In this document: in pieces, positions 6,514 through 43,983 of the stretch
Numbering within the stretch: position 1 is the first letter of the stretch
Layout of the letters: the number at the start of each line of letters is the position of its first letter
The notes under the pieces: generated by a model
What the model saw: the letters and a program-made list of their open reading frames with translations, nothing else
What the model was told of the DNA's origin: nothing
Databases searched by the model: none
Source of the DNA: a virus
DNA length: 50,332 nt
IMG/VR virus record: IMGVR_UViG_3300042328_001042
Location: 1-50,332 of that record
Direction: 5' to 3' (one strand)
Program-made: the position numbers and the translations under genes

Positions 6514-6750
6514 ATGAAAGTTGTACAAAATACAGTTTATGGACGCCGCGCGTCATTTACTCTTCCTAAAGTCGCGTTGAAAAAATACAGAGAGCTTGGC
6601 GGCGAAGACATAACAACGCGTTACGACCCCATCTTGATTCAAATCGTCGAAGAGTTTGGTAACTCTATAGACAATAAAAAGAGCAAATTGATTGTCGTTG
6701 ATGTTGGTTTACGCAACGGCGGCAGTTCAGAAATGAAATTAGTAATTTGA
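6514..6750 (+). CDS. conserved small phage protein, paralogue of the 4623 gene
   Basis: 78 residues from the ATG at 6514, chosen over 6502 because TTATGGAG serves as its ribosome-binding site. Shares LKKYRELGG and YDPILIQIVEEFG with the gene at 4623 but has a different C-terminus. Function unknown. Confidence 0.7.
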   Translation: MKVVQNTVYGRRASFTLPKVALKKYRELGGEDITTRYDPILIQIVEEFGNSIDNKKSKLIVVDVGLRNGGSSEMKLVI

Positions 6751-6757
6751 GGTGAAA

Positions 6758-7336
6758 ATGTTTGCGTTCGATATAGAAACCTTAGGTGCGGAATCAACGT
6801 CTGTTATCCTGTCATACGCGATCGTTTATTTTGATCCGGATACAAAACCAACCTATCAACAACTGTTAGACAAAACTTTATTTGTCAAATTGGATGCTAA
6901 AGATCAAATCAAAAACTATAAACGAACTATATGTAAAGACACCTTAGAATGGTGGTCTAAACAGCACGAATACATTCAAGGTATAAGTCTGACGCCAAAA
7001 CCAGATGACGTTTCTGCCGTTGGCGCATTCAGAATGTTATCTGAATACATCCGTAGAGTTCCGAACGCTGAGAATCAAACCTTCTGGCAACGTGGATCGT
7101 TGGATCAAGTAGTTCTGGACAGTTTATGTCGAGCGCTTTACGAAGAACCAATTGTAAGGTATAGTAATTGGAGAGATGTAAGAACTGCTATTGATATTTT
7201 GTATGGATCAACCAACGGTTATGTTGAAATTGATCATCCTGAATTTAACAAAGATTTAGTATTAAAACATCATCCATCTCATGACATCTGTTTAGATGTC
7301 ATGCAACTACTTTATGGTAAGGAGAAACATGTCTAA
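6758..7336 (+). CDS. dexA: DexA-like 3'-5' exonuclease
   Basis: 192 residues. DEDD-superfamily motifs are visible: FDIETLG at residues 4-10 (ExoI), RGSLDQVVL near 112-120 (ExoII) and HDICLDV near 180 (ExoIII). T4 DexA degrades single-stranded DNA from the 3' end and is dispensable; this copy sits directly upstream of the polymerase, with an 8-base overlap. Start ATG at 6758 has GAGGTG upstream; the GTG at 6752 lies within that site. Confidence 0.85.
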   Translation: MFAFDIETLGAESTSVILSYAIVYFDPDTKPTYQQLLDKTLFVKLDAKDQIKNYKRTICKDTLEWWSKQHEYIQGISLTPKPDDVSAVGAFRMLSEYIRRVPNAENQTFWQRGSLDQVVLDSLCRALYEEPIVRYSNWRDVRTAIDILYGSTNGYVEIDHPEFNKDLVLKHHPSHDICLDVMQLLYGKEKHV

Positions 7337-8810
7337 TTTTTATACGAATGTCATGGTTAATGGCGATAATATATTCGCACGCGGTGTGGAAAACGGGAAG
7401 AAATTTATTCGCAAGGAAGAGTTTTTCCCGACGATGTATCTAAAATCAAAAAAACAAACCGTTTGGAAAACTTTATACGACGAACCTGTAGAAGAATTGA
7501 AAGCAGGTTCTATTCGCGAAACCAGAGACTTTTTGAAACGGTATGAAGAGGTCGAAGGATTTTCTGTATATGGCAATAACAACTATGTACAACAATACAT
7601 TTCCGATAATTACAAAAACGACGTTGTTTATGACATCGATAAGATCCGCGCGGTTTCGATAGATATTGAAACGACTGTGGAGTCGGGGTTCCCTAACATA
7701 AGAACCGCCAATGAAGAAATTCTGCTGATTACTCTAATTGATTGTAGAACTTATAAGAGCGTTTGTTTTGGAAGTCGCCCTTGTAATTACGAAGATACCG
7801 ATTCATCCAAATACATTTTATGCAGTAACGAAGAATCATTACTGAAAAACTTTCTGATGTATTGGCAAGCAAACTATCCTGATATTATTACGGGGTGGAA
7901 TACGGAACAGTTCGATAATGTATATCTTATTAATAGAATTAAACGGGTTCTAGGCGATTCTTATGCCAAAAAACTTTCCCCTTGGAATATGTTATTTGAA
8001 CGGAAAGTTAAAATTCGGGGTAAAGAAGAACAAATTTATGACATCTGTGGTATTGCTTCGTTAGATTACCTAGAACTGTATAAGAAGTTTACATATAATA
8101 AACAGGAATCATATTCATTAGATTTTATCTGCGAATATGAACTTGGCGAAAAGAAATTAGAAAATCCAGGTGATACTTTTAAAGAGTTTTATACAGACCA
8201 TTGGAATACGTTCGTTGAGTATAATATTCGCGACGCGGCGTTGGTTGTTAAGTTAAATGACAAAATGCGATTACTTGAATTAGTTATGACTATCGCTTAT
8301 CAAGCAAAAATCAATTACGAAGACGTATACAGTCCAGTAAAAACTTGGGAAGCAATCATCTACAATTATTTACGCCAACGTAATATAGCAATTCCTCAGT
8401 CAAAATTCGGCGGTAAATCAGAGCAGTTCGAAGGCGCTTATGTCAAACCGCCGTTGATTGGGTTCCATAAATCGATTGCGTCATTTGATTTAAACTCTCT
8501 GTATCCGCATCTTATTATGCAGTATAATATGAGTCCAGAAACAATTACCGATATACGAATTCCTTGTTCCGTCGACGAGTTATTAGAACGTAAGGTTGAC
8601 ACGTCGGTAATCGAACCCTATAACGTAGCATTGACTGCAAACGGTTGGTGTTATACTAAGGAGAAGAAAGGGTTCCTCCCTCAGTTGATGGAAAACATGT
8701 ATGTAGACCGTTCTAAAGCAAAGAAACAAATGCTTAAATTAGAACAGGAATATGAACACATTAAACAAGAGATTAAAATCCGTTCTTTAAAATCAAATCC
8801 AAACGTCTGA
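7329..8810 (+). CDS. 43A: DNA polymerase, N-terminal part of a split gp43 (gp43A)
   Basis: 493 residues: N-terminal domain, 3'-5' exonuclease and first half of the polymerase domain of a family B replicative polymerase. Exonuclease motifs: DIETTVE near 116, TGWNTEQFDN near 188 and YNIRDAALV near 298. Palm motif A is FDLNSLYPHLIMQYN near 387. The frame stops in the fingers linker, with a non-homologous tail (IRSLKSNPNV). The remainder of the enzyme is encoded from 9005. The start has AAGGAGAAAC upstream and overlaps dexA. The two products presumably assemble into one polymerase, as known for split gp43 of some Aeromonas T4-like phages. Confidence 0.93.
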   Translation: MSNFYTNVMVNGDNIFARGVENGKKFIRKEEFFPTMYLKSKKQTVWKTLYDEPVEELKAGSIRETRDFLKRYEEVEGFSVYGNNNYVQQYISDNYKNDVVYDIDKIRAVSIDIETTVESGFPNIRTANEEILLITLIDCRTYKSVCFGSRPCNYEDTDSSKYILCSNEESLLKNFLMYWQANYPDIITGWNTEQFDNVYLINRIKRVLGDSYAKKLSPWNMLFERKVKIRGKEEQIYDICGIASLDYLELYKKFTYNKQESYSLDFICEYELGEKKLENPGDTFKEFYTDHWNTFVEYNIRDAALVVKLNDKMRLLELVMTIAYQAKINYEDVYSPVKTWEAIIYNYLRQRNIAIPQSKFGGKSEQFEGAYVKPPLIGFHKSIASFDLNSLYPHLIMQYNMSPETITDIRIPCSVDELLERKVDTSVIEPYNVALTANGWCYTKEKKGFLPQLMENMYVDRSKAKKQMLKLEQEYEHIKQEIKIRSLKSNPNV

Positions 8811-8900
8811 TTCGATATAATTATAATCGTCAAATGGAATTATTTGTAAACCAAATTTCGTTAAAATATTATGAGTTTCAATATTTTTTGGATTTGATTT
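8790..8900. repeat. 14-base inverted repeat in the polymerase split
   Basis: AAATCAAATCCAAA at 8790-8803 is repeated in inverted orientation at 8887-8900. It straddles the gp43A stop codon. It is not followed by a T run on either side, so it is unlikely to be a simple terminator. Confidence 0.6.
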
Positions 8901-8990
8901 GAAAGTTTTTAATGCATTGATTGTTGCTTTTAATCTATTTTTGCGCTTTACTTTTATACCGTTTCGAGGTATACTTTTATTTATATCATT
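8793..8990 (-). pseudogene. minus-strand open frame inside the polymerase split, possible endonuclease remnant
   Basis: On the minus strand, 65 codons are open between stops at 8991-8993 and 8793-8795, without an ATG. The reading (…IKVKRKNRLKATINAL…) is basic and protein-like. It fills most of the DNA separating gp43A from gp43B. Split gp43 genes elsewhere carry a homing endonuclease gene at the split, so a decayed 3' end of such a gene is plausible; no catalytic motif can be seen. Confidence 0.3.
8947..8975 (+). promoter_or_regulatory. early promoter inside the DNA polymerase split
   Basis: TTTACT 8947-8952, 17-base spacer, TATACT 8970-8975, followed by GAGGAG before the ATG at 9005. It gives the second polymerase gene its own transcription and translation signals. 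Confidence 0.85.
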
Positions 8991-9004
8991 TTAGAGGAGT
9001 TGAT

Positions 9005-10355
9005 ATGAAAGATATAAAAAACATGACCGATTCCGAATTATTGGAATATGAAATTTACGTAGAGAAAGAAATAAGCAGATTAAATAATTTGCAAATGGCG
9101 TTGAAAATCCTTTAACAATAAGAGGCATATGTCGGTAACGGCATACAGAAAATCTGGTGAAAACGGTGAAAATCCAGAACGGACAATACCGTGCCAAGTC
9201 TATTTTTATAGAAAGGTGTAACGACTATTCCGAAAGGAAGTAGAACCAAGCGGTTCGAAGCGCCAGACGACCTAAACAGGTTGATGAGATAGTCTGCTCT
9301 GCATAGGAATATGCAGCTGCTTTACGCGGGGTTGGATTAGCGAACCGATCCGAACACAAAGGTTAAATTCAGCATATGGCGCATTGGGCAATAACTACTT
9401 TAAGTATTTTGATTTGAGACTTGCAGAAGGGATTACAATGTCTGGTCAGTTATCCATTCGTTGGATGGCAAATAAATTAAATGCTATGATGAATAAAACA
9501 TTAAAGACAGTAGATAAAGATTACGTGATTGCTATCGACACGGATTCTATTTATTTGTCGTTAGAAAAATTAGTTGATTCGGTATGTAACGGTAAATCTG
9601 CGGAACAGAAAATTCAATACATGGATAAAATTTGCGAGGAAGTATTCCAACCCTTTATTAATAAAGGTTACCAAGAACTTGCTGATTACATGTATGCATA
9701 TTCTCAAAAAATGGTAATGAAACGAGAATCATTAGCGGATAAAGGTATTTTTATTGCCAAAAAGCGTTACATCTTGAATGTTCATAACTCCGAAGGCGTT
9801 CAGTATAAAGAACCTAAATTGAAAGTCATGGGACTCGAAATGGTTCGTTCTTCCACTCCTGCAGTTTGTCGAAGTAAACTGAAAGGTGCAATTCCTGTCA
9901 TCCTTGACGGCGATTCTGTTGGATTGAAGCAATACGTTTCTGAATTCAAAGATCAATTTATGAAACTTCCAGTTCATGACATCGCTAAACCTTCCGGCGT
10001 GAATGGTATGACCACTTATAAAGGCGCGGATAACATTTATGCAAAAGGAACGCCGATTCACACTAGAGGCGCGTTGCTATTCAATCATCATACTAAACGG
10101 TTGGGGTTGGATAAAAAGTATGAGATGATACAAGACGAGGATAAAATCAAATTTGTGTATGTTCGTAAACCAAACCCGTTTCAAGAAGACATTATTTCTT
10201 TCCCGACTCATTTACCTAAAGAGTTTGGACTTGACTCTTATATTGACAGGGATCTACAGTTCCAGAAAGTGTTCGTAGACGCATTACAAATTATGGTAAA
10301 CCCGCTGGGGTGGAGTTTAGACGATTCAGCAAATTTAGAAGACTTTTTTGGATAA
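9005..10355 (+). CDS. 43B: DNA polymerase, C-terminal part of split gp43 (gp43B), interrupted by a group I intron
   Basis: Read as exons 9005-9112 and 9363-10355, giving 366 residues. Exon 1 ends in ..NLQMALKIL and exon 2 begins LNSAYGALGNNYF, restoring family B motif B across the splice. Motif C is IDTDSIY, followed by the thumb. Without splicing, a TAA stop occurs immediately in the intron. The N-terminal MKDIKNMTDSELLEYE continues the linker broken off in gp43A after ..KQEIK. It is preceded by its own promoter and a GAGGAG site. Confidence 0.9.
9113..9362 (+). other. group I intron, 250 bases, without ORF
   Basis: The 5' exon ends in U (CCTT) and the intron ends in G. The 5' exon CCTT pairs with intron GAGG at 9122-9125 to form P1 with the required U-G pair at the splice site. 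The conserved R and S elements are visible as ACGACTAT (near 9222) and ATAGTC (near 9290), forming P7. ACGG/CCGT near 9179-9192 fits P5. It sits in the polymerase motif B codons, a favoured site for phage introns. No endonuclease is encoded within it. Confidence 0.9.
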
Positions 10356-19513: not shown

Positions 19514-19521
19514 TATAAATA
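19514..19521 (+). promoter_or_regulatory. T4-type late promoter
   Basis: Exact TATAAATA directly after the terminator and 27 bases before the first virion-protein gene. Confidence 0.8.
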
Positions 19522-19547: not shown

Positions 19548-19895
19548 ATGAAAACATTTAAAGAATTTTTAGAACTCCATATAACTGAAAATTTTATTGG
19601 CGAAGATGATATACCGTCAACAGAATATCTAACCGAAGAACATGAAAATGTTACATTAAATAAACCTTTTAGAACGCCAGGCGAGCGAAAAAAATTCGCT
19701 GTATATGTAAAAAATAGTTCCGGTAAAGTTGTTATCGTTCGTTTCGGCGATCCCAACATGGAAATAAAACGGGACGACCCAGAACGCAGAAAATCATTTA
19801 GAGCAAGACACAGTTGCGATACAGCAAAAGATAAAACTACCCCGAGATATTGGTCATGTCACCAATGGAGAGCATCTGCCAAGGTTGAAGATTAA
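19548..19895 (+). CDS. virion-associated protein with capsid-targeting-like N-terminus
   Basis: 115 residues. It starts MKTFKEFLELHITE, closely resembling the capsid-targeting sequence of T4 internal proteins (MKTYQEF type), and ITE fits the (L/I)-x-E cleavage rule of the T4 prohead protease. The C-terminal block, FGDPNMEIKRDDPERRKSF followed by RARHSCD...RYWSCHQW, recurs in many marine T4-like structural proteins as I recall. Late promoter upstream; TAATG overlap with the next gene. Role in the head is inferred. Confidence 0.75.
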   Translation: MKTFKEFLELHITENFIGEDDIPSTEYLTEEHENVTLNKPFRTPGERKKFAVYVKNSSGKVVIVRFGDPNMEIKRDDPERRKSFRARHSCDTAKDKTTPRYWSCHQWRASAKVED

Positions 19896-20722
19896 TGAAT
19901 GAATTAAATGATTTCTTAAAATTAATTGCCGAAGGTAAACAGGATTATAAGCAAAATGATCCTGTCGGTAAGAAATTGGAAGAAGTTAAAGAGAATGTCA
20001 AGACAGACTTAAATTCTTTGTTTGCGCAGTTATCTGAAATTGTTATCGAAGATCCGGTTTCTATAATCAAGGAAGACGATGAAACAGTTTTTCAACCTTC
20101 ACTTGAAGAAGTCAGTATACAGGAACAAGTGGCACAAGAAGAAGTACCCTTCCCCACGCCAAAAACAGAAGCTGATGCAATTGCGGCGTATGCTGCCAAT
20201 TTTAAGAATGCATCGTTCCAACAACCAGACGTTCCACGAGTTGATCCCACTATCAAGGCAGTGCAGGATAAACTTAAATTCTTGGAACAATGGGTAGGTA
20301 AAATATCGGTTGCTGGCCCAGGCGGCGGTGAAGTCAATTTAAGATGGTTGGATGATGTCTATAGACCCTCTATCTATGATGGTCGATATTTAAGATATAA
20401 CGATTCATTGAAGAAGTTCGAGTTTGCAGAAGTCAATCCTCATGATATTACTTACACCACTACATTAGTCACCACACCAACCTATACAGTCAATGGCCAA
20501 GATTATTATATTGGCGTTGATTATGCTGGCTCAGTTACTATCGCATTACCAACAACGCCAAGTTCAGGCAGAATGCTAATAATAAAAGATGAATCTGGTG
20601 ATGCAGAAAATAATCCAATTACTGTACTAGGTAACGTCGATAATGATGTGGGTGGATTTATCATTCAAATTAATAACGGTGCAATACAAATGATTTATAG
20701 AAATGGTTGGAGAATAGTGTGA
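19895..20722 (+). CDS. virion structural protein
   Basis: 275 residues. The start MNELNDFLKLIAEGK could also be a targeting segment (IAE). Residues about 30-80 are acidic and low-complexity, and from about 95 a helix leads into a Gly-rich, beta-predicted C-terminal half (DDVYRPSIYDGRYLRYNDSLKKF...), typical of fibre or head decoration domains in marine T4-like phages. Translationally coupled to the following gene. Confidence 0.65.
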   Translation: MNELNDFLKLIAEGKQDYKQNDPVGKKLEEVKENVKTDLNSLFAQLSEIVIEDPVSIIKEDDETVFQPSLEEVSIQEQVAQEEVPFPTPKTEADAIAAYAANFKNASFQQPDVPRVDPTIKAVQDKLKFLEQWVGKISVAGPGGGEVNLRWLDDVYRPSIYDGRYLRYNDSLKKFEFAEVNPHDITYTTTLVTTPTYTVNGQDYYIGVDYAGSVTIALPTTPSSGRMLIIKDESGDAENNPITVLGNVDNDVGGFIIQINNGAIQMIYRNGWRIV

Positions 20723-22611
20723 GTTACCTGTTTAAACCCTACGATGGCGAAATTAAAAATGATGTTGGTAATCCACTTCCAATATCAAAAGATATTAATG
20801 ATAACAGTTCAACCAATCCAATTTATGTTGACACGGGTTTAATTATTCCCACTAGCATTGAGATCAGTAATGACGCTGGTAATTCAATACCCGTTAGCGG
20901 TAAAGTCGCTATAGTGGATAGTAATGGTGATTGGAACGCTGCAAGTAAACCCGTTCATGTACAAGTAAACAATTTTCCAGCCAGCGTAGAAATTGCCAAT
21001 GATGCTGGCAATAGTATTCCTGTATCAGGTAAAGTCGCTATTGTTGATCAATATGGCGACTGGAACGCTCCCGATAAACCCGTGTATGTTGATGCTAATA
21101 TATCAAGTTCTATTAGTATCGCAGGTACTCCGTCATCAACAACAGCATTTGGTGAGTCTTACGGGATTACCATTACACCAGTTATTCAATTAGATAGTAT
21201 CTATGGTATTACTGATGAAGTAATACAAACCTATCATAATGGTACTGGATCTTCTGCTGGTGCGAATCCTTCTGATGCTTTATTTAAAGTTGAATGTGGT
21301 ACAAGTTTAGGTGGTTATGGTGTATTGCGTAGTAAACGATTCATCAGATATAGACCAGGTCAAGGCGCATTGTGTCGATTTACTGCTGCATTTACGCCTA
21401 ATGTAGCAAATACATCACAACGCGCGGGGTTGTTCAACGAAGAAAATGGTATTATGGTTGGCTGGAATCAAAGTCCAACTGGACCAAAATTCGGTGTAAT
21501 GAGAGCGACGGGTGGTAAAGCACATGTAACTGTATTGACCATTAATACAGCTCCTAATGCTACACAGACAGTTACGCTAACATTAAATGGCGTTCCATAT
21601 AGTTTTTCAATTGGTGCAGGTACTACTCAAGCAACTGCCGCAGCAATAAATTTACATGATGGTTATGTTGGTTGGTTAACAGATCAAGTTGATAATACTA
21701 TTGTATTTCTAAACAGTACAACTGGTCCAAATAACGGTGCATTCAGTTTTACTAGTACGGGTAACTGTACTGCTACATTCAGTACAAAACAAGTTGGTAT
21801 TGCACAGACAGAAAATTGGACATATCAAGACCAGTTTAATGTGGACAAACTAAATGGCGCTGGTCCGAGCGGTATGACTCTTGCTTCGCAGTATTTAAAT
21901 GTTTATCAAATCAATTATCGTTGGTTAGGTGCTGGTGAAATACGATATGCGATTGAAAATCAATTAACGGGCGATATGGTATTTTTCCATAAAGAACATT
22001 ATACCAATCAACACAATACTGCTCATGTTGCCAACCCAAGTTTTAAAATTGGTTATGTTTCTTATAACCTTGGTTCTGCAGCAAATGCGACAGTAACGGG
22101 CGTTTGTTTTATGGGCGCAATTGAAGGTGATATTAGACAGAATGAATTAAATCGTTCTACTAGCGTCAGTAAAAGTTCAATATCTCAAAATACAACCCAA
22201 CATTTAATGACCGTTCGTAATCCTTATATCACTAATGGTAAAGCAGGTGCGTTAAATGGTAATTATATTTTAAACGCCAAAGAGATCATCCTAAAAGATA
22301 TTTCTATCGCTACACAGGGTACTGATCCTGGTATTGTTTATTTGTTTTATGACGCTACATCATTTACAGGTACGCATAGCTACTATAGCCAACCAAAAGA
22401 TAATGGTATGCTTAGTACAGTGGTTGGCACATTAGATCCTATGGTTGATACTGCTATCTGTCGATTCGCGACTGCACTCAATGGCGAGGCGCAATATAAA
22501 TTAAGTGATTTTCGTATAGCAATACCACCAGGGAGTTCTATTAGTATTGCCATCAATTCTACGGCAAACTTATCAAGAGTATCCTGTGCATTGGTATTTT
22601 CTGAAGATTAA
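20719..22611 (+). CDS. large virion structural protein with N-terminal repeats, GTG start
   Basis: 630 residues. GTG at 20719 overlaps the previous stop (GTGA) with GGAG six bases upstream; the TTG at 20707 has no site of its own. Residues about 45-130 hold two copies of a unit with the core NDAGNSIPVSGKVAIVD followed by GDWNA, and a degenerate third (NDVGNPLPIS). The remainder is Gly/Thr/Asn-rich and beta-predicted, without cysteine-rich or enzyme motifs. A tail fibre, head fibre or decoration protein is likely. Confidence 0.7.
   Translation: MSYLFKPYDGEIKNDVGNPLPISKDINDNSSTNPIYVDTGLIIPTSIEISNDAGNSIPVSGKVAIVDSNGDWNAASKPVHVQVNNFPASVEIANDAGNSIPVSGKVAIVDQYGDWNAPDKPVYVDANISSSISIAGTPSSTTAFGESYGITITPVIQLDSIYGITDEVIQTYHNGTGSSAGANPSDALFKVECGTSLGGYGVLRSKRFIRYRPGQGALCRFTAAFTPNVANTSQRAGLFNEENGIMVGWNQSPTGPKFGVMRATGGKAHVTVLTINTAPNATQTVTLTLNGVPYSFSIGAGTTQATAAAINLHDGYVGWLTDQVDNTIVFLNSTTGPNNGAFSFTSTGNCTATFSTKQVGIAQTENWTYQDQFNVDKLNGAGPSGMTLASQYLNVYQINYRWLGAGEIRYAIENQLTGDMVFFHKEHYTNQHNTAHVANPSFKIGYVSYNLGSAANATVTGVCFMGAIEGDIRQNELNRSTSVSKSSISQNTTQHLMTVRNPYITNGKAGALNGNYILNAKEIILKDISIATQGTDPGIVYLFYDATSFTGTHSYYSQPKDNGMLSTVVGTLDPMVDTAICRFATALNGEAQYKLSDFRIAIPPGSSISIAINSTANLSRVSCALVFSED
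20857..21070 (+). repeat. imperfect direct repeat within the structural gene
   Basis: Two in-frame units of roughly 85 bases (from about 20857 and about 20983) encode nearly identical peptides with the core GNSIPVSGKVAIVD. Third-codon positions differ, so the duplication is old and held by protein selection. Confidence 0.7.
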
Positions 22612-22616
22612 AATTA

Positions 22617-22624
22617 TATAAATA
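22617..22624 (+). promoter_or_regulatory. T4-type late promoter
   Basis: Exact TATAAATA, 33 bases before the ATG of the nucleotidyltransferase-fusion gene. Confidence 0.8.
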
Positions 22625-22656
22625 ACTAATATAGATTACTTTATAGATGGAAACAG

Positions 22657-25011
22657 ATGAAACAATATAGACAATTCCTAAAGGAAATGCCTACCAAAAC
22701 AATCGTATTTGCTTTTGGTAGGTGTAATCCGCCGACAAACGGGCACGGACTACTTGTTAATGTAGTTAAACATATTGCTGATAATAACGAAGCAGATTAT
22801 GTTATCTATGTGTCTAGAACTCAGGATAAAAAGAAAAATCCATTGCCCGTTGATAAAAAGATTCATTATTTGAATCTAATGTTTCCGCATACCAATTTCA
22901 AACCCGCGACTGATAAAGAACGCACGTTCATAGAAGTTGCTAAATCATTAAACGCAAAATATAAAAATCTGATCATGATCGCGGGTTCTGATCGCATACC
23001 CGAATATGAAAAGTTGTTAAACAAATACAACGGTACAGAGTTTCATTATGATTCAATCCAAGTAATTTCTGCCGGTGAACGAGATCCAGATTCAGATGAC
23101 GTATCCGGTATGTCGGCATCTAAAATGAGAGCATATGCTACGTCCGGCGATTTTCAAGGATTTAAAAAAGGTTTGCCATCGTCCATGCGGGATATCGATG
23201 CCAAATTATTATTTAATGACATTCGCCAGGGTATGGATTTAGAACCAATCAAAGAACAATATAAATTAAATGTTGATTCTCTGAGGGAACAATATTTTAA
23301 TAAACAAATATTTAATATTGGTAATATAGTTGAATCCGATGATATTAAATACGAAATAATGGATAGAGGTAGTAATTATCTCGTTCTTATTAACTTAGAG
23401 GGCGATATTAGTCGCAAATGGATACAGGACGTTACTATGTCTGAAGAAACGCAACTATTTACAGATGTTCAGTTTGACAAGGTTGATTCTGAAACTGCTC
23501 CAACTGAAATAACATTTAAAGGTTATACAACAAAGAATCTACATAATGCTCCAGAGGCGTCAAATGCATTCATGAAAACCATTAACAATATGGGTTCTGC
23601 TGATCCACTGTCTGTATTAAACGCATTGAAAGCGACTGACTATTATCTTGGCGTTACAGTTGCTGATATATTACATGGCGGTTCAGAAGAACAATCTGAT
23701 TTATTAAAATGGTCTGACGCACATTTAAAAGCAAAAAGAGCATTGGATCATTGCGGCGAGTTTATAAATCATATTGAATATTGGCATCTATATAAAGACA
23801 AATTAGACAAAGCAGTATTTGCGGTTAGAATTAAATCAGATGCAGATCCTATACAAGATTTTAGCGAGAGCGTTATGCTGGATAAAAATAAAGATAAATT
23901 AAAAGTTGCTAAGATGATTGGTTCTATACTTGGCGTAGAAGACGCAGAGAAATTATCAAACCCAGAACAAATAGTTAATTCGGCGTTAAGAAAATCAAAA
24001 TCATTACCAAAAGATTCACAGAAAATCATCAAAAAGATGCTTAAACTGGCAGATGAAGTTGGTATTAAATATGATAAAAAAGCAACTAAAATTGATTTGA
24101 CAGAAGAGCAAGTTAAACTGGCTACGGAACGGGCAGAGCGTTATGGACGACGCTACCCTAATCCAATTGATGAACAATGGGTATTAAAAGAAGGTAAAGC
24201 GCCATCGATCGAAATGGATAAATCTAAAGTAGGACAAGTTGCTTCTCTTAGACCTGATGATGAACAGAAATTAACTAAACTCAATAAAATGGGTAAAGGC
24301 GAAGTTGTCGAACAAGGTATCCCAGCAGAGACCAAAAAAGAAATCGAAAATTATGCCAACACTGGGCATACTGATGGCGTAGTCAGAAAAGACGGTCAAA
24401 ATCAACCTGAATATACACACGTTGGCGCATCGTTGACATCTGATAATAATGACACTCTCGCGAGAATGAAGGCAAAAAAACTTCGCAATGAATCTAAAGA
24501 ATGTGATGATTGCGACGATTTTGATATGACTGATATCGACATTGATAAAGAGATTAATCAGTTAAGCGATGATGATTACTTAGAGGCGTACGATCCAGAA
24601 GAATTTAGTGTGGTTGATGTTGAGACCGGAGAAGAAGAAAAAGAAGAAAAACCAGTAAACGAAGAAGCACTGAATGAAGTTCTATCTAAAATAGAACGGA
24701 TGAAAGCAAAACTCAGATTTGCTAAAAACAGAGCAAAAATAGATAGAGCAAGAATGTTAGCGTTGAAAAAGCGCTCTGATTCTAAAACTATCAATAAACG
24801 AGCAAGACATTTGGCGGTTAATGTATTACGTAAAAAATTACTTAGAGGTAAAGATTTAAGTTCTTTATCTTCTGCCGAAAGAGATCGTATTGATAGAATT
24901 ATTGAAAAGAAAAAGAAAGTAATCGGAAGAATGGCGATGAAACTTACAACTAAAATACGCGATATTGAAAAAAATAGATTATCGCATAAGAATTTTACTA
25001 AAGGAAACTGA
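22657..25011 (+). CDS. virion protein: capsid-targeting N-terminus, nucleotidyltransferase domain, core-like C-terminus
   Basis: 784 residues. MKQYRQFLKEMPTK is targeting-like. Residues 15-190 are an HxGH-class nucleotidyltransferase resembling NMN adenylyltransferases: AFGRCNPPTNGHGLL (TNGH in place of HxGH), MIAGSDRIPEYEKLL, and GMSASKMRAYA in the ISSTxxR position. The centre is helical. The C-terminal 110 residues are highly basic and helical (RMKAKLRFAKNRAKIDRARM...), like prohead core proteins. Several L-x-E or I-x-E sites could be cut during maturation. The enzyme may be packaged; catalysis is untested because the signature is diverged. Confidence 0.72.
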   Translation: MKQYRQFLKEMPTKTIVFAFGRCNPPTNGHGLLVNVVKHIADNNEADYVIYVSRTQDKKKNPLPVDKKIHYLNLMFPHTNFKPATDKERTFIEVAKSLNAKYKNLIMIAGSDRIPEYEKLLNKYNGTEFHYDSIQVISAGERDPDSDDVSGMSASKMRAYATSGDFQGFKKGLPSSMRDIDAKLLFNDIRQGMDLEPIKEQYKLNVDSLREQYFNKQIFNIGNIVESDDIKYEIMDRGSNYLVLINLEGDISRKWIQDVTMSEETQLFTDVQFDKVDSETAPTEITFKGYTTKNLHNAPEASNAFMKTINNMGSADPLSVLNALKATDYYLGVTVADILHGGSEEQSDLLKWSDAHLKAKRALDHCGEFINHIEYWHLYKDKLDKAVFAVRIKSDADPIQDFSESVMLDKNKDKLKVAKMIGSILGVEDAEKLSNPEQIVNSALRKSKSLPKDSQKIIKKMLKLADEVGIKYDKKATKIDLTEEQVKLATERAERYGRRYPNPIDEQWVLKEGKAPSIEMDKSKVGQVASLRPDDEQKLTKLNKMGKGEVVEQGIPAETKKEIENYANTGHTDGVVRKDGQNQPEYTHVGASLTSDNNDTLARMKAKKLRNESKECDDCDDFDMTDIDIDKEINQLSDDDYLEAYDPEEFSVVDVETGEEEKEEKPVNEEALNEVLSKIERMKAKLRFAKNRAKIDRARMLALKKRSDSKTINKRARHLAVNVLRKKLLRGKDLSSLSSAERDRIDRIIEKKKKVIGRMAMKLTTKIRDIEKNRLSHKNFTKGN

Positions 25012-25013
25012 TA

Positions 25014-25451
25014 ATGAATGAATTAGCAGCAGCATTGAAGATCGTACAAGCAAATACTTTCTTTATGTATTTTAAATCTCACAGTTACCACCATAATGTG
25101 GAAGGTCCAAATTTCAATGACTATCACGGTTATTTTGGTGGATTATACGAGGAATTATGGGGTGCAGTAGATCCTATTGCCGAACATATTAGAGCAATTG
25201 ATCAATATGCACCGATTAGCATCGAAGATATGCATAGCGCTAAAACAGTAAAAGAAGATACTTCAAGAGTAGCGTTACCGAAGCAGATGTTTTTAAACTT
25301 GATCGATGCTAATAACGAAGTCATAGATTCATTGAACAAATCATATGATTTAGCGAACTATGCTAAACAAAATGGTCTTACTAACTTTATCCAAGATCGT
25401 TTAGATATCCATGCTAAACATGGGTGGCAGTTACGCTCGTTGTCAAAGTAA
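25014..25451 (+). CDS. Dps/ferritin-like protein
   Basis: 145 residues, four-helix-bundle pattern. YFKSHSYHHNVEGPNFNDYHGYFGGLYEELWGAVDPIAEHIRAI matches the Dps core: a histidine in the first helix and D/E-x-x-x-E in the second form the inter-subunit iron site. Dps proteins bind DNA and detoxify iron and peroxide. Located in the late block between two targeting-tagged proteins, so it is expressed late; it lacks the tag itself. Start three bases after the previous stop. Confidence 0.75.
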   Translation: MNELAAALKIVQANTFFMYFKSHSYHHNVEGPNFNDYHGYFGGLYEELWGAVDPIAEHIRAIDQYAPISIEDMHSAKTVKEDTSRVALPKQMFLNLIDANNEVIDSLNKSYDLANYAKQNGLTNFIQDRLDIHAKHGWQLRSLSK

Positions 25452-25452
25452 C

Positions 25453-25626
25453 ATGAAAACCTATAAAGAATTAATGGAAGATTTAGCAACTTCCGATATA
25501 AGAGTTAAAAAATGGGTTGACGGTAATGGCGTCACCAGAACTAAAAAGATTAGAGCACATAGAGTGGTTTTTAAGAATAGTAAATCTAACGCTGAACCAG
25601 CGCAAGATGACGCGCCGCCAAAATAG
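25453..25626 (+). CDS. small basic protein with capsid-targeting-like N-terminus
   Basis: 57 residues from the ATG after the Dps-like gene stop; the longer frame starts inside that gene. MKTYKELMEDL is nearly the T4 internal-protein tag. The remainder is basic (KKWVDGNGVTRTKKIRAHRV), fitting a DNA-associated internal head peptide. Inference from tag and charge. Confidence 0.6.
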   Translation: MKTYKELMEDLATSDIRVKKWVDGNGVTRTKKIRAHRVVFKNSKSNAEPAQDDAPPK

Positions 25627-25634
25627 GAAATCGA

Positions 25635-26393
25635 ATGAAAAGTTTTAAAGAATTGATGTATGACGTTCAGGTAAACGAAAGTAAAGCAAGAGAAATGTCT
25701 AAAGACGTTGCTGGATCTTACGCATCCGCTGCAAGATTACATCCCAATAACAAGTCTGGGTTTAATTCTAAAATGACTGGACCATCGGATGTTGAACATT
25801 CAGAAAAACGTAAATTGTTGGGTATCAGAACCAAACGCAATTGGAAACGCGAAGAACCGAATGGTAAAGAATCGTTATCGGAATCATTATCTCATGATTA
25901 TTTGCTACAATCATTGGCAGATAAAGATATTAATGCGCACATTAAAGATGGTAAAGTGGTTGTTCATCCAGACGACGCCGCTGAAGCGCGTAAACATCTA
26001 AAAAAGATTGGCCACGACCATTTAAGAGTAACGACAAAAGATGTTCATCAAGTTGCCGAAGAAGTTGAAGAATTAGATGAATCTATAGAAAATATGTCTG
26101 ACGCTAAAGTCAAATATTATGCTACTAAAAAATTCCCGCGCGGTAGATATTCGTCTAAAGAAATAAAGGCAGAACATGATCGACGCATGAGAACTGTCCC
26201 AAACTACCGCGCCGTTCAACCATCATTAAATGAAGAAGTCGAATTGGACGAAATTCTAGATCCTTCAATGGGCGCTGGCGAATACGTAAAAGATTTCCAA
26301 AAATCAGCCGCGCCGCAATTTAAAGGCAAATCACAAGAAAAACGCAGAATTATGGGTATTGCTGCGTATATGGCAGCAAAAAAGAATAAATAA
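25635..26393 (+). CDS. internal/core-like virion protein with capsid-targeting-like N-terminus
   Basis: 252 residues, strongly charged. It starts MKSFKELMYDVQVNE (VNE is a near-match to the protease rule) and contains LSE, LNE and LDE sites further in. Residues about 95-135 resemble a small alpha/beta domain (LADKDINAHIKDGKVVVHPDD...). The C-terminal block with DPSMGAGEYVKDF and KGKSQEKRRIM recurs, as I recall, in marine T4-like virion proteins. Confidence 0.65.
   Translation: MKSFKELMYDVQVNESKAREMSKDVAGSYASAARLHPNNKSGFNSKMTGPSDVEHSEKRKLLGIRTKRNWKREEPNGKESLSESLSHDYLLQSLADKDINAHIKDGKVVVHPDDAAEARKHLKKIGHDHLRVTTKDVHQVAEEVEELDESIENMSDAKVKYYATKKFPRGRYSSKEIKAEHDRRMRTVPNYRAVQPSLNEEVELDEILDPSMGAGEYVKDFQKSAAPQFKGKSQEKRRIMGIAAYMAAKKNK
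26385..26392 (+). promoter_or_regulatory. possible late promoter (AATAAATA)
   Basis: A one-mismatch late box overlapping the end of the previous gene and 30 bases before the ATG at 26422. Weak on its own. Confidence 0.35.
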
Positions 26394-26421: not shown

Positions 26422-27222
26422 ATGCTTTGGGGCGTAAGAGATTCATTCGCTATTGTTGGTACAGTAGCAGTTACTAATGGTTCACCTGCCGTTGTTGGCA
26501 CGGGCACACATTTTACAACGGTGTTAGAAGAAGGCAAAACAATTGTTATTGCATCCGTCAAATACAAAATTTTAAAAATTACTGATGATACTCATCTAAC
26601 ATTGGTAATTGATTATGCGGGCGTTGATGCATCAGGTTTAACTATTACTGGCACTGATATTCCTAAATACATCATGCAACAAGATTTGCACAAAGTCTAT
26701 TTTGTTGATCGTACCGAATCGCAACAACCAGAAAATACAGCCAAAGGGTTAAATGAACCAGGTTGGTGGTTCTATACTTCTCATGTTGATGCACAAGGTC
26801 AAACAAGACATAAAGCAGAACATTTAGTTGCAATGGACATTACTGCTGCAGTTTCTAGCGATGCTGCTGATGATGCAGTTGTTGTTGATGGTACATTAAC
26901 CATTAATACTCAACCAGTCAATAAAACGACAACTGCTGGTACAGCAGAAGCATCATTGTTTACTGTAGCGGCTACATTGGTTGGCGGTGCTGGTATCATC
27001 AATTATCAATGGCAACAAGCGCCTTCTACTGGATCGCCTTGGACTGATTTGAGCGATGCTGGCGGTGTATGGACTAATGTAACTACTGCTACTCTAGGCG
27101 TTAATGCTGGTATGACCGACACTTCATCATCATTCAACGGTACTAAATTCCGTTGCGTCATTACTTCTGATGGTGTTACAAGTAAAACAACAACTACCAG
27201 AACTTTAACCGTTAATCCATAA
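26422..27222 (+). CDS. virion structural protein with Ig-like C-terminal domain
   Basis: 266 residues. The N-terminal half carries a beta-rich region (GTVAVTNGSPAVVGTGTHFTT) common in phage head or tail proteins. Residues about 160-266 form an immunoglobulin-like domain: ATLVGGAGIINYQWQQAPSTG, then KFRCVITSDG with the usual Trp and Cys positions. Such domains sit on head or tail surfaces (as in T4 Hoc) and bind carbohydrates. Followed by a terminator. Confidence 0.75.
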   Translation: MLWGVRDSFAIVGTVAVTNGSPAVVGTGTHFTTVLEEGKTIVIASVKYKILKITDDTHLTLVIDYAGVDASGLTITGTDIPKYIMQQDLHKVYFVDRTESQQPENTAKGLNEPGWWFYTSHVDAQGQTRHKAEHLVAMDITAAVSSDAADDAVVVDGTLTINTQPVNKTTTAGTAEASLFTVAATLVGGAGIINYQWQQAPSTGSPWTDLSDAGGVWTNVTTATLGVNAGMTDTSSSFNGTKFRCVITSDGVTSKTTTTRTLTVNP

Positions 27223-43437: not shown

Positions 43438-43983
43438 ATGCGATTTAAAGAGTTAATCGAAAAACTCAATAAACCCAATGATGGTACCAGAACATTATTT
43501 GAATCAATTGCAATTCCCGAAGTCGAAAAAGCATTAAAAGATTGGAATGGATCAAATCATTCTGGTATCCTGATTGGCGGGTGCGCTGTTGGGTATTATA
43601 CTAGACCTAGAGCAACAACAGATGTTGACATTTTATTCTTAACTAAAGGTGATATACCATCGTCTGTTAACGGATTCAAAAAGACTAGGTCTGGCGCATT
43701 TCAGCATAATGAAACGCATGTTGAAATAGAAGTTGTATCGCACGAGTCAATAAATATATCAACTGCATTAGTTCAAAAAGTGTTTAATACCGCTATTCTA
43801 TCTAATGGAGTAAAGGTCGCCAGTCCATCTTCTCTGGTTGCATTAAAGTTACAACGGTTGAAGGGGCATGACATTGGCGACATTGCCGGATTGATTAAAA
43901 CGGGTAAAGTCAATCTTTCTGGTTATCCATTGAGTAAACAGAACTTGAAAGATTTCGAGGAAATAAAAAAGAGATTTGTATGA
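43438..43983 (+). CDS. nucleotidyltransferase-fold protein
   Basis: 181 residues. ILIGGCAVGYYTRPRATTDVDILFL near 44-68 carries the GG and D-x-D of the pol-beta nucleotidyltransferase superfamily, nearest in feel to AbiEii/MNT-type proteins; EIEVVSHE near 97 supplies a further acidic residue. The N-terminus MRFKELIEKLNKP resembles the tag of the late virion proteins. Substrate unknown; RNA or protein nucleotidylation are both seen in the superfamily. Overlaps the next gene. Confidence 0.7.
   Translation: MRFKELIEKLNKPNDGTRTLFESIAIPEVEKALKDWNGSNHSGILIGGCAVGYYTRPRATTDVDILFLTKGDIPSSVNGFKKTRSGAFQHNETHVEIEVVSHESINISTALVQKVFNTAILSNGVKVASPSSLVALKLQRLKGHDIGDIAGLIKTGKVNLSGYPLSKQNLKDFEEIKKRFV

Follow-up and report, generated by a model that had tools for sequence, protein, structure and literature searches.

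A shared N-terminal label on different proteins of a T4-like virus record, a probable counterpart of the T4 capsid-targeting sequence

Why should five different proteins, encoded in one stretch of viral DNA, begin with nearly the same ten residues? Here, we address this question for IMG/VR virus record IMGVR_UViG_3300042328_001042 (G000), whose 50,332 bases were analysed whole and are called the window below. Its genes, named by eye from translations, encode a UvsX-type recombinase, a replicative helicase, a primase, NrdA/NrdB and a ThyX-like protein, a set like that of T4-like aquatic phages. A first-pass annotation had likened the N-termini of the open reading frames (ORFs) at 19548, 22657, 25453, 25635 and 43438 to the T4 capsid-targeting sequence (CTS) and predicted that their products are packaged into the head and injected; all five N-termini were found as quoted, on the + strand. 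The best explanation, in which we have considerable confidence, is that the shared N-terminus (the label, or tag) is functionally equivalent to the T4 CTS. The label, its specificity for N-termini, its recurrence on unrelated proteins, its conservation and the published detection of labelled orthologues in the virions of relatives are established in what follows. The labelled ORFs are:

19548..19895, + strand: tagged ORF 19548, 115 amino acids (aa), MKTFKEFLEL..., whose body is the small basic module phrog_7595
22657..25011, + strand: tagged ORF 22657, 784 aa, MKQYRQFLKE then MP..., with LKE at residues 8-10
25453..25626, + strand: tagged small basic ORF 25453, 57 aa, MKTYKELMED..., isoelectric point (pI) 9.8
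25635..26393, + strand: tagged basic ORF 25635, 252 aa, MKSFKELMYD..., pI 9.2, Asp at residue 10
43438..43983, + strand: ORF 43438 with a short form of the tag, 181 aa, MRFKELIEK..., pI 9.4

All four full-length labels (19548, 22657, 25453 and 25635) have an aromatic residue at position 4 and Phe or Leu at position 7; in ORF 43438, whose tag (MRF...) is one residue shorter, these two targeting positions of the 10-residue label are shifted by one. ORF 43438 has a weak AbiEii/DUF6036 nucleotidyltransferase similarity, below cut-offs, and its sole relative found (L270, 44% identity) begins with the full form MKTFKSFIER. The mechanical ORF around 25453 opens at 25411, but the tag-bearing ATG lies one base after an upstream stop and three of the window's five closest relatives (L002-L004 of L001-L005) start exactly there, reading MKTYKELLED.

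The genome-wide motif search proposed by the first-pass annotation, with M[KR]x[FY][KRQ][EQ][FL], was run on 12 phage sequences and found the motif at 15 of 2449 gene-like ORF starts and at none of 7977 internal methionines; a broader motif occurs at 22 and 7 of these, respectively. One window match, at 6577 with a doubtful TTG start, was treated as spurious. When each N-terminal residue column was shuffled among genes, the first motif, observed three times in the window (a count that excludes 25453, which lies behind an earlier ATG), had a mean of 0.01, and 0 of 2000 permutations reached the observed value. The corresponding figures are 4 observed against a mean of 0.07 in T4 (0 of 1000 permutations) and 9 against 0.13 in the other 11 genomes pooled, T4 included, where the observed value was never reached. 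The broader motif gave a weaker result in the window alone, with two observed and 5 of 2000 permutations reaching two. The label pattern is specific to real protein starts, and the internal-methionine and column-permutation nulls reject chance or start-codon bias as its source. AT-rich phages often have MK starts, and the label is matched by some proteins that are not known from virions, T4 td among them, as would be expected if A-rich start regions and chance had produced it and it had no targeting role. Column permutation retains that bias, yet yields means of 0.01-0.13 against 3-9 observed for the first motif; start-region bias also leaves unexplained the conservation of the label across diverged orthologues and its link to a junction site (both below), and we regard it as a highly improbable source.

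Applied to T4, the first motif picks exactly the internal proteins IPI, IPII and IPIII and gp61.1. A matrix made from 11 seeds that looked like labels by eye, taken from the window and L001-L005, ranks IPIII 3rd, IPII 4th and IPI 6th among 3030 possible T4 starts, which bears out the claimed resemblance to the CTS; the other top starts are gp61.1 (1st; MKTFKEFIKED, 54 aa), rIIA.1 (2nd) and td (5th). T4 gp61.1 (L017, NC_000866, 18966-19130, - strand) is annotated as hypothetical; the motif search flags it as a candidate internal protein, and judged by its N-terminus it may be one that has gone unrecognised. T4 internal proteins are described as basic, and the pI values of the labelled window proteins, 7.9 to 9.8, lie in the neutral to basic range. 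Mutagenesis of IPIII assigned residues 4 and 7 mainly to targeting and residues 8 and 10 to processing, and Asp at position 10 blocked processing while targeting was kept (PMC9026906). Because Asp at this position blocks only processing in T4, ORFs 25453 and 25635, which have Asp at 10, would be predicted to be targeted without being processed.

Conservation of the label is best followed in the family of ORF 22657, whose NMNAT/PPAT-like nucleotidyltransferase domain begins near residue 15 and is followed by a long C-terminal part. The family alignment contains an FGRxxPPTxGH-type nucleotide motif (PxxxGH type), the PHROG assignment is cytidyltransferase, and Pfam CTP_transf_like falls below cut-off. 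Best Foldseek matches are PPAT/CoaD and NadD (E 7e-6 to 1e-3), and a sequence search of solved structures with the nucleotidyltransferase alignment gave no match at 0.001. The modelled fold places ORF 22657 in the nucleotidyltransferase superfamily, with matches that do not separate PPAT from NadD; orthologues are named NMNAT or cytidylyltransferase in the reports cited below. AlphaFold models the label as a short helix of low confidence (residues 3-10; per-residue confidence, pLDDT, 53 over the first ten residues) that lies outside the confident fold, which begins at residue 15. Relatives L001-L005, found through the nucleotidyltransferase, all start MKQYRQFLKEMP. Among 85 viral loci with an orthologue, the start could be located in 57, and 36 of these match a relaxed label, which is kept though identity drops to about 40%; 22 of the 36 have an aliphatic residue at 8 and Glu at 10.

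The label is also carried by other proteins of the relatives, where labelled ORFs with unrelated bodies lie between conserved neighbours: MKSFVEFITE in L002, L004 and L005, MKSFKDFLLE in L004 and MKSFSDFLTE in L005. As read from these sequences, such modular placement is the behaviour that would be expected of an address label. In 86 sequences (the 85 loci plus the window), 92 labelled ORFs fall into 14 body clusters, a few of which are likely chance matches; 54 of the 92 belong to the nucleotidyltransferase family because homology to the labelled nucleotidyltransferase was the basis on which the 85 loci were collected. Other labelled bodies include DUF6267, a HAD phosphatase, an NT5C-like nucleotidase, a zeta/AAA kinase and proteins of unknown function, and in L216 five ORFs in a row start with the label or a label-like sequence. 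Pfam and PHROG searches gave no family for the labelled bodies at L002:1592, L004:2656, L028:5100 and L033:10371.

Labelled proteins are found in published virion proteomes, for which we used mass spectrometry (MS) by other groups on three cyanophages, S-CREM2, S-SZBM1 and S-SCSM1. Six of the nine tagged proteins of these phages are among the published virion proteins, an over-representation (P 0.0018 for at least six), namely 4 of 4 in S-CREM2, 1 of 3 in S-SZBM1 and 1 of 2 in S-SCSM1, and the orthologue of 22657 is among the virion proteins of all three. In S-CREM2, where Table 3 gives 52 MS proteins of 219 (PMC10665884), the labelled ones are the S-adenosylmethionine (SAM) hydrolase gp6 (MKDFDSFLEE), gp13 (MKDLHSFLTE), the kinase gp14 (MKRFDAFLTE) and the cytidylyltransferase gp154 (MKNFSSFLTE), and all three virion proteins that the table classes as 'regulatory' are among them. 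A matrix from the window only, run on the 219 S-CREM2 proteins, places virion proteins in the top three ranks and gp13 5th; the 4th, gp92, is not a virion protein. The only labelled protein in the S-SZBM1 virion list (Table 1, 30 proteins; PMC9146016) is the cytidylyltransferase, with the short form MRFRQFIIEA. For S-SCSM1, NMNAT gp91 (MKSFLQFLKE) is marked as virion in the GenBank notes, and the totals used were 45 virion proteins, as given in the paper, and 282 genes, the highest locus number. The cytidylyltransferase of S-SM1 is also reported in virions (PMC3037559), and 14 virion proteins are reported for S-CREM1. As a negative control, the NMNAT of jumbo phage CBB (CBB_113), which has neither label nor extension, is not among the 55 CBB virion proteins reported (PMC5259590). 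Directly downstream of the short labelled S-CREM2 gp13 (L009:10310-10546), with a four-base overlap, lies gp12 (L009:7704-10313), a virion protein annotated as Cas9/Csn1 that has no label; the two might be linked by frameshift or in a complex.

Detection in virions would also follow if the label sent proteins to another late structure, such as the tail, neck or membrane. The window's acidic, tail-fibre-like protein at 19895-20722 starts with a loosely label-like MNELNDFLKLIAEG (its relatives start MSEFEDFLKLVAEG), which would suit such a destination. The label, however, matches T4 proteins known inside the head, with protease-type sites, and the labelled window proteins are not acidic, so that we consider this destination very improbable. 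ORF 19895 was also considered as a sixth cargo and rejected, as it is acidic, lacks a basic residue at 2 and is tail-fibre-like.

Processing sites were sought near the tags. The first-pass annotation had noted an (L/I)-x-E site often nearby, and this holds for 19548, 22657, 25453 and 43438 and fails for 25635: [LI]xE occurs among residues 1-20 in 4 of the 5 tagged ORFs, compared with 21 of the window's 95 gene-like ORFs (tagged included). Only in ORF 22657 (LKE) does the site fall exactly at the label end, residues 8-10; other window labels have an offset site or none, with LME at 7-9 and Asp at 10 in ORF 25453 and LIE at 6-8 in ORF 43438. ORF 19548 has candidate sites ITE (12-14) and LTE (28-30), and from residue 31 its pI is 9.9; its AlphaFold model (mean pLDDT 61) was too poor for a structure search. 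In labelled stand-alone relatives of ORF 19548, some 20 residues separate the label from an [LIVM]xE that immediately precedes the conserved domain. All 12 tagged rows have this junction site, as do 8 of the 48 untagged ones (p 9e-8, for rows that are not independent), counted after removal of identical-context repeats had reduced 69 rows to 60; the eight untagged rows include label-like starts missed by the regular expression (L187, L233, L242, L243 and L261) and a Melnitz-3 fusion. If its ATG is its start, L251 begins MAEYQGKK, where cutting would leave labelled members.

The phrog_7595 module also occurs C-terminally on the Melnitz-3 nucleotidyltransferase and within long fusions, two of which (L204 and L209) have a portal-like gene upstream. 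L188, L189, L203, L209 and L235 are long fusions of small modules that combine phrog_7595 with DUF5824, some also with DUF3721, and DUF5824 is likewise C-terminal on the labelled nucleotidyltransferase L233:131-1900. In the ICP1 head maturation protease gp125 (L008:16057-16893), phrog_7595 is the C-terminal domain (residues 184-261), with phrog_3017 at 29-183. The module's place within a head protease and the two fused forms downstream of portal-like genes, together with the reported influence of T4 IPIII on head assembly (PMC9026906), would fit a label that marks clients of the core for head assembly, as IPIII-like morphogenesis factors and not as injected effectors. Many labelled bodies, however, are enzymes that vary by phage (nucleotidyltransferase, kinase, nucleotidase and the S-CREM2 SAM hydrolase), and we judge a purely morphogenetic role to be rather unlikely.

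A T4-type CTS would need a T4-type head to read it. The S77 prohead protease (PF03420) and gp23 (PF07068) are both found in 12 of 14 records, comprising relatives plus T4, S-CREM2, HTVC008M and Melnitz-3, and neither is found in G006 and G010. In the alignment of gp23 N-termini, L-x-E stands at the position of T4 LTE/A in the aligned relatives (LFE, LNE, LGE and LSE), and S-CREM2 gp23 reads LLTE/A, slightly out of register. Because L-x-E occupies the gp23 maturation position in relatives, it is plausible that the protease specificity assumed for the label holds in this group.

Read as a counterpart of the CTS, the label would comprise ten residues (basic at 2, aromatic or Leu at 4, Phe, Leu or Ile at 7, aliphatic at 8 and usually Glu at 10) that bind the prohead scaffolding core, so that the head would close around core plus cargo. 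The gp21-type (S77) prohead protease would then cut after (L/I)-x-E, inside or just behind the label, and the freed cargo, mostly basic, would stay with the packaged DNA and enter the cell with it. The cargo would include the NMNAT/PPAT-superfamily nucleotidyltransferase (22657) and the small basic internal-protein-like products of 19548, 25453 and 25635, and possibly the second nucleotidyltransferase-like protein (43438), and during the first minutes of infection would act on host nucleotide or NAD (nicotinamide adenine dinucleotide) metabolism or on immunity. We infer that labelled proteins bind the core, are cleaved and are injected, and likewise what each cargo does and that packaging takes place in the window phage itself.

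Several observations weigh against this reading. The window record has no gp23 match, and the machinery that would read the label is therefore inferred from relatives. The strict regular expression, M[KR].?[FYL]..[FLIY][LIMVF].[ED], was composed only after the S-CREM2 N-termini had been seen, and it also matches T4 td (thymidylate synthase, MKQYQDLIKD), to our knowledge not a T4 internal protein. Among nucleotidyltransferase orthologues, 21 of the 57 starts miss the relaxed expression, mostly as apparent variants, and at least five (L047, L054, L079, L096 and L098) are clearly without a label; some relatives of 19548 are tagless, and distant relatives of 25635 (L267-L269) share its C-terminal module only, without the label. 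ORF 25635 has no [LI]xE among its first 20 residues. The junction in window ORF 19548 has diverged, reading IPST then EY without Glu and flanked by ITE and LTE, which makes the case weaker for that member. Three of the nine tagged cyanophage proteins were undetected in virions (S-SZBM1 191 and 192 and S-SCSM1 gp30, MKTFKQFMSE), and the S-CREM2 authors state that presence by MS can reflect co-purification (PMC10665884).

The first-pass annotation had also called the labelled proteins late. This is plausible for 19548 and 22657, each preceded by a T4-type late-promoter octamer, and less clear overall: in the 12 sequences the octamer precedes 4 of 22 tagged and 126 of 2427 untagged ORFs (p 0.026), an association too weak to be accepted as proof of late expression. 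The octamers and two neighbouring genes are:

19514..19521, + strand: T4-type late-promoter octamer TATAAATA, 34 nt before the ATG of ORF 19548
22617..22624, + strand: T4-type late-promoter octamer TATAAATA, 40 nt before the ATG of ORF 22657
25014..25451, + strand: ferritin/Dps-like neighbour, untagged
26422..27222, + strand: neighbour, phrog_613 'head protein'

The short C-terminal module of ORF 25635 also occurs in other phage proteins, one of them annotated DUF6321. Elsewhere in the window, the DNA polymerase gene (7296-10355) seems split, its first part ending at about 8810 and its second beginning at about 9384, and the gap is possibly an insertion or intron.

More broadly, we tentatively raise the possibility that the T4-type label is a general loading signal of aquatic T4-like phages, by which a swappable enzyme kit is delivered with the DNA. 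Such a kit would hold NAD and nucleotide-metabolic (NMNAT-like, nucleotidase), counter-restriction (SAM hydrolase) and kinase or repair cargo; reading labels genome by genome would give the injected effector list of each phage, and NAD would be replenished or protected by NMNAT-like cargo ahead of the action of NAD-depleting host defences. Enzymes such as NMNAT-like cytidylyltransferase have been seen repeatedly in cyanophage virions, where the reports cited leave open, in the sections concerned, whether they are packaged or contaminants. A label that can be recognised would supply a mechanism for packaging, and a simple search for its motif yields predictions of the injected proteins of many aquatic phages. 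As a review of T4 already suggests that T4-like phages in general use the CTS (PMC9026906), a known mechanism would be extended here and not newly founded. In open-licence literature, no paper was found that visibly connects a CTS with the NMNAT of cyanophages or with the cargo of marine T4-like phages, which is weak evidence of novelty because the search covered open-licence papers only.

Like the CTS of T4 IPI, IPII and IPIII, the label has the same length, position and residue pattern, with an aromatic residue at 4 and a hydrophobic one at 7, carries Leu/Ile-x-Glu at 8-10 in many cases, is reused on unrelated proteins, and occurs in a group whose members, the relatives of the window phage, encode T4-type gp21 and gp23. 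Unlike the T4 CTS, it is found on large enzymes (784 aa) that are conserved among T4-like phages of aquatic origin, it also exists in a shorter MRF form, and its cleavage is a prediction. T4 Alt, an ADP-ribosyltransferase, is similarly described as a head-packaged, ejected enzyme with an N-terminal propeptide (PMC9026906), whereas it begins MELITELFDE, which is no match to the label. The virion-associated 'regulatory' enzymes of cyanophages (NMNAT/cytidylyltransferase, SAM hydrolase and APH/ChoK kinase) appear to be the closest parallel for the cargo, as the orthologue of 22657 is reported in virions of S-SM1, S-SCSM1, S-SZBM1 and S-CREM2 (PMC3037559, PMC9602691, PMC9146016, PMC10665884); unlike those reports, in whose cited sections no packaging signal is proposed, we propose the label as that signal.

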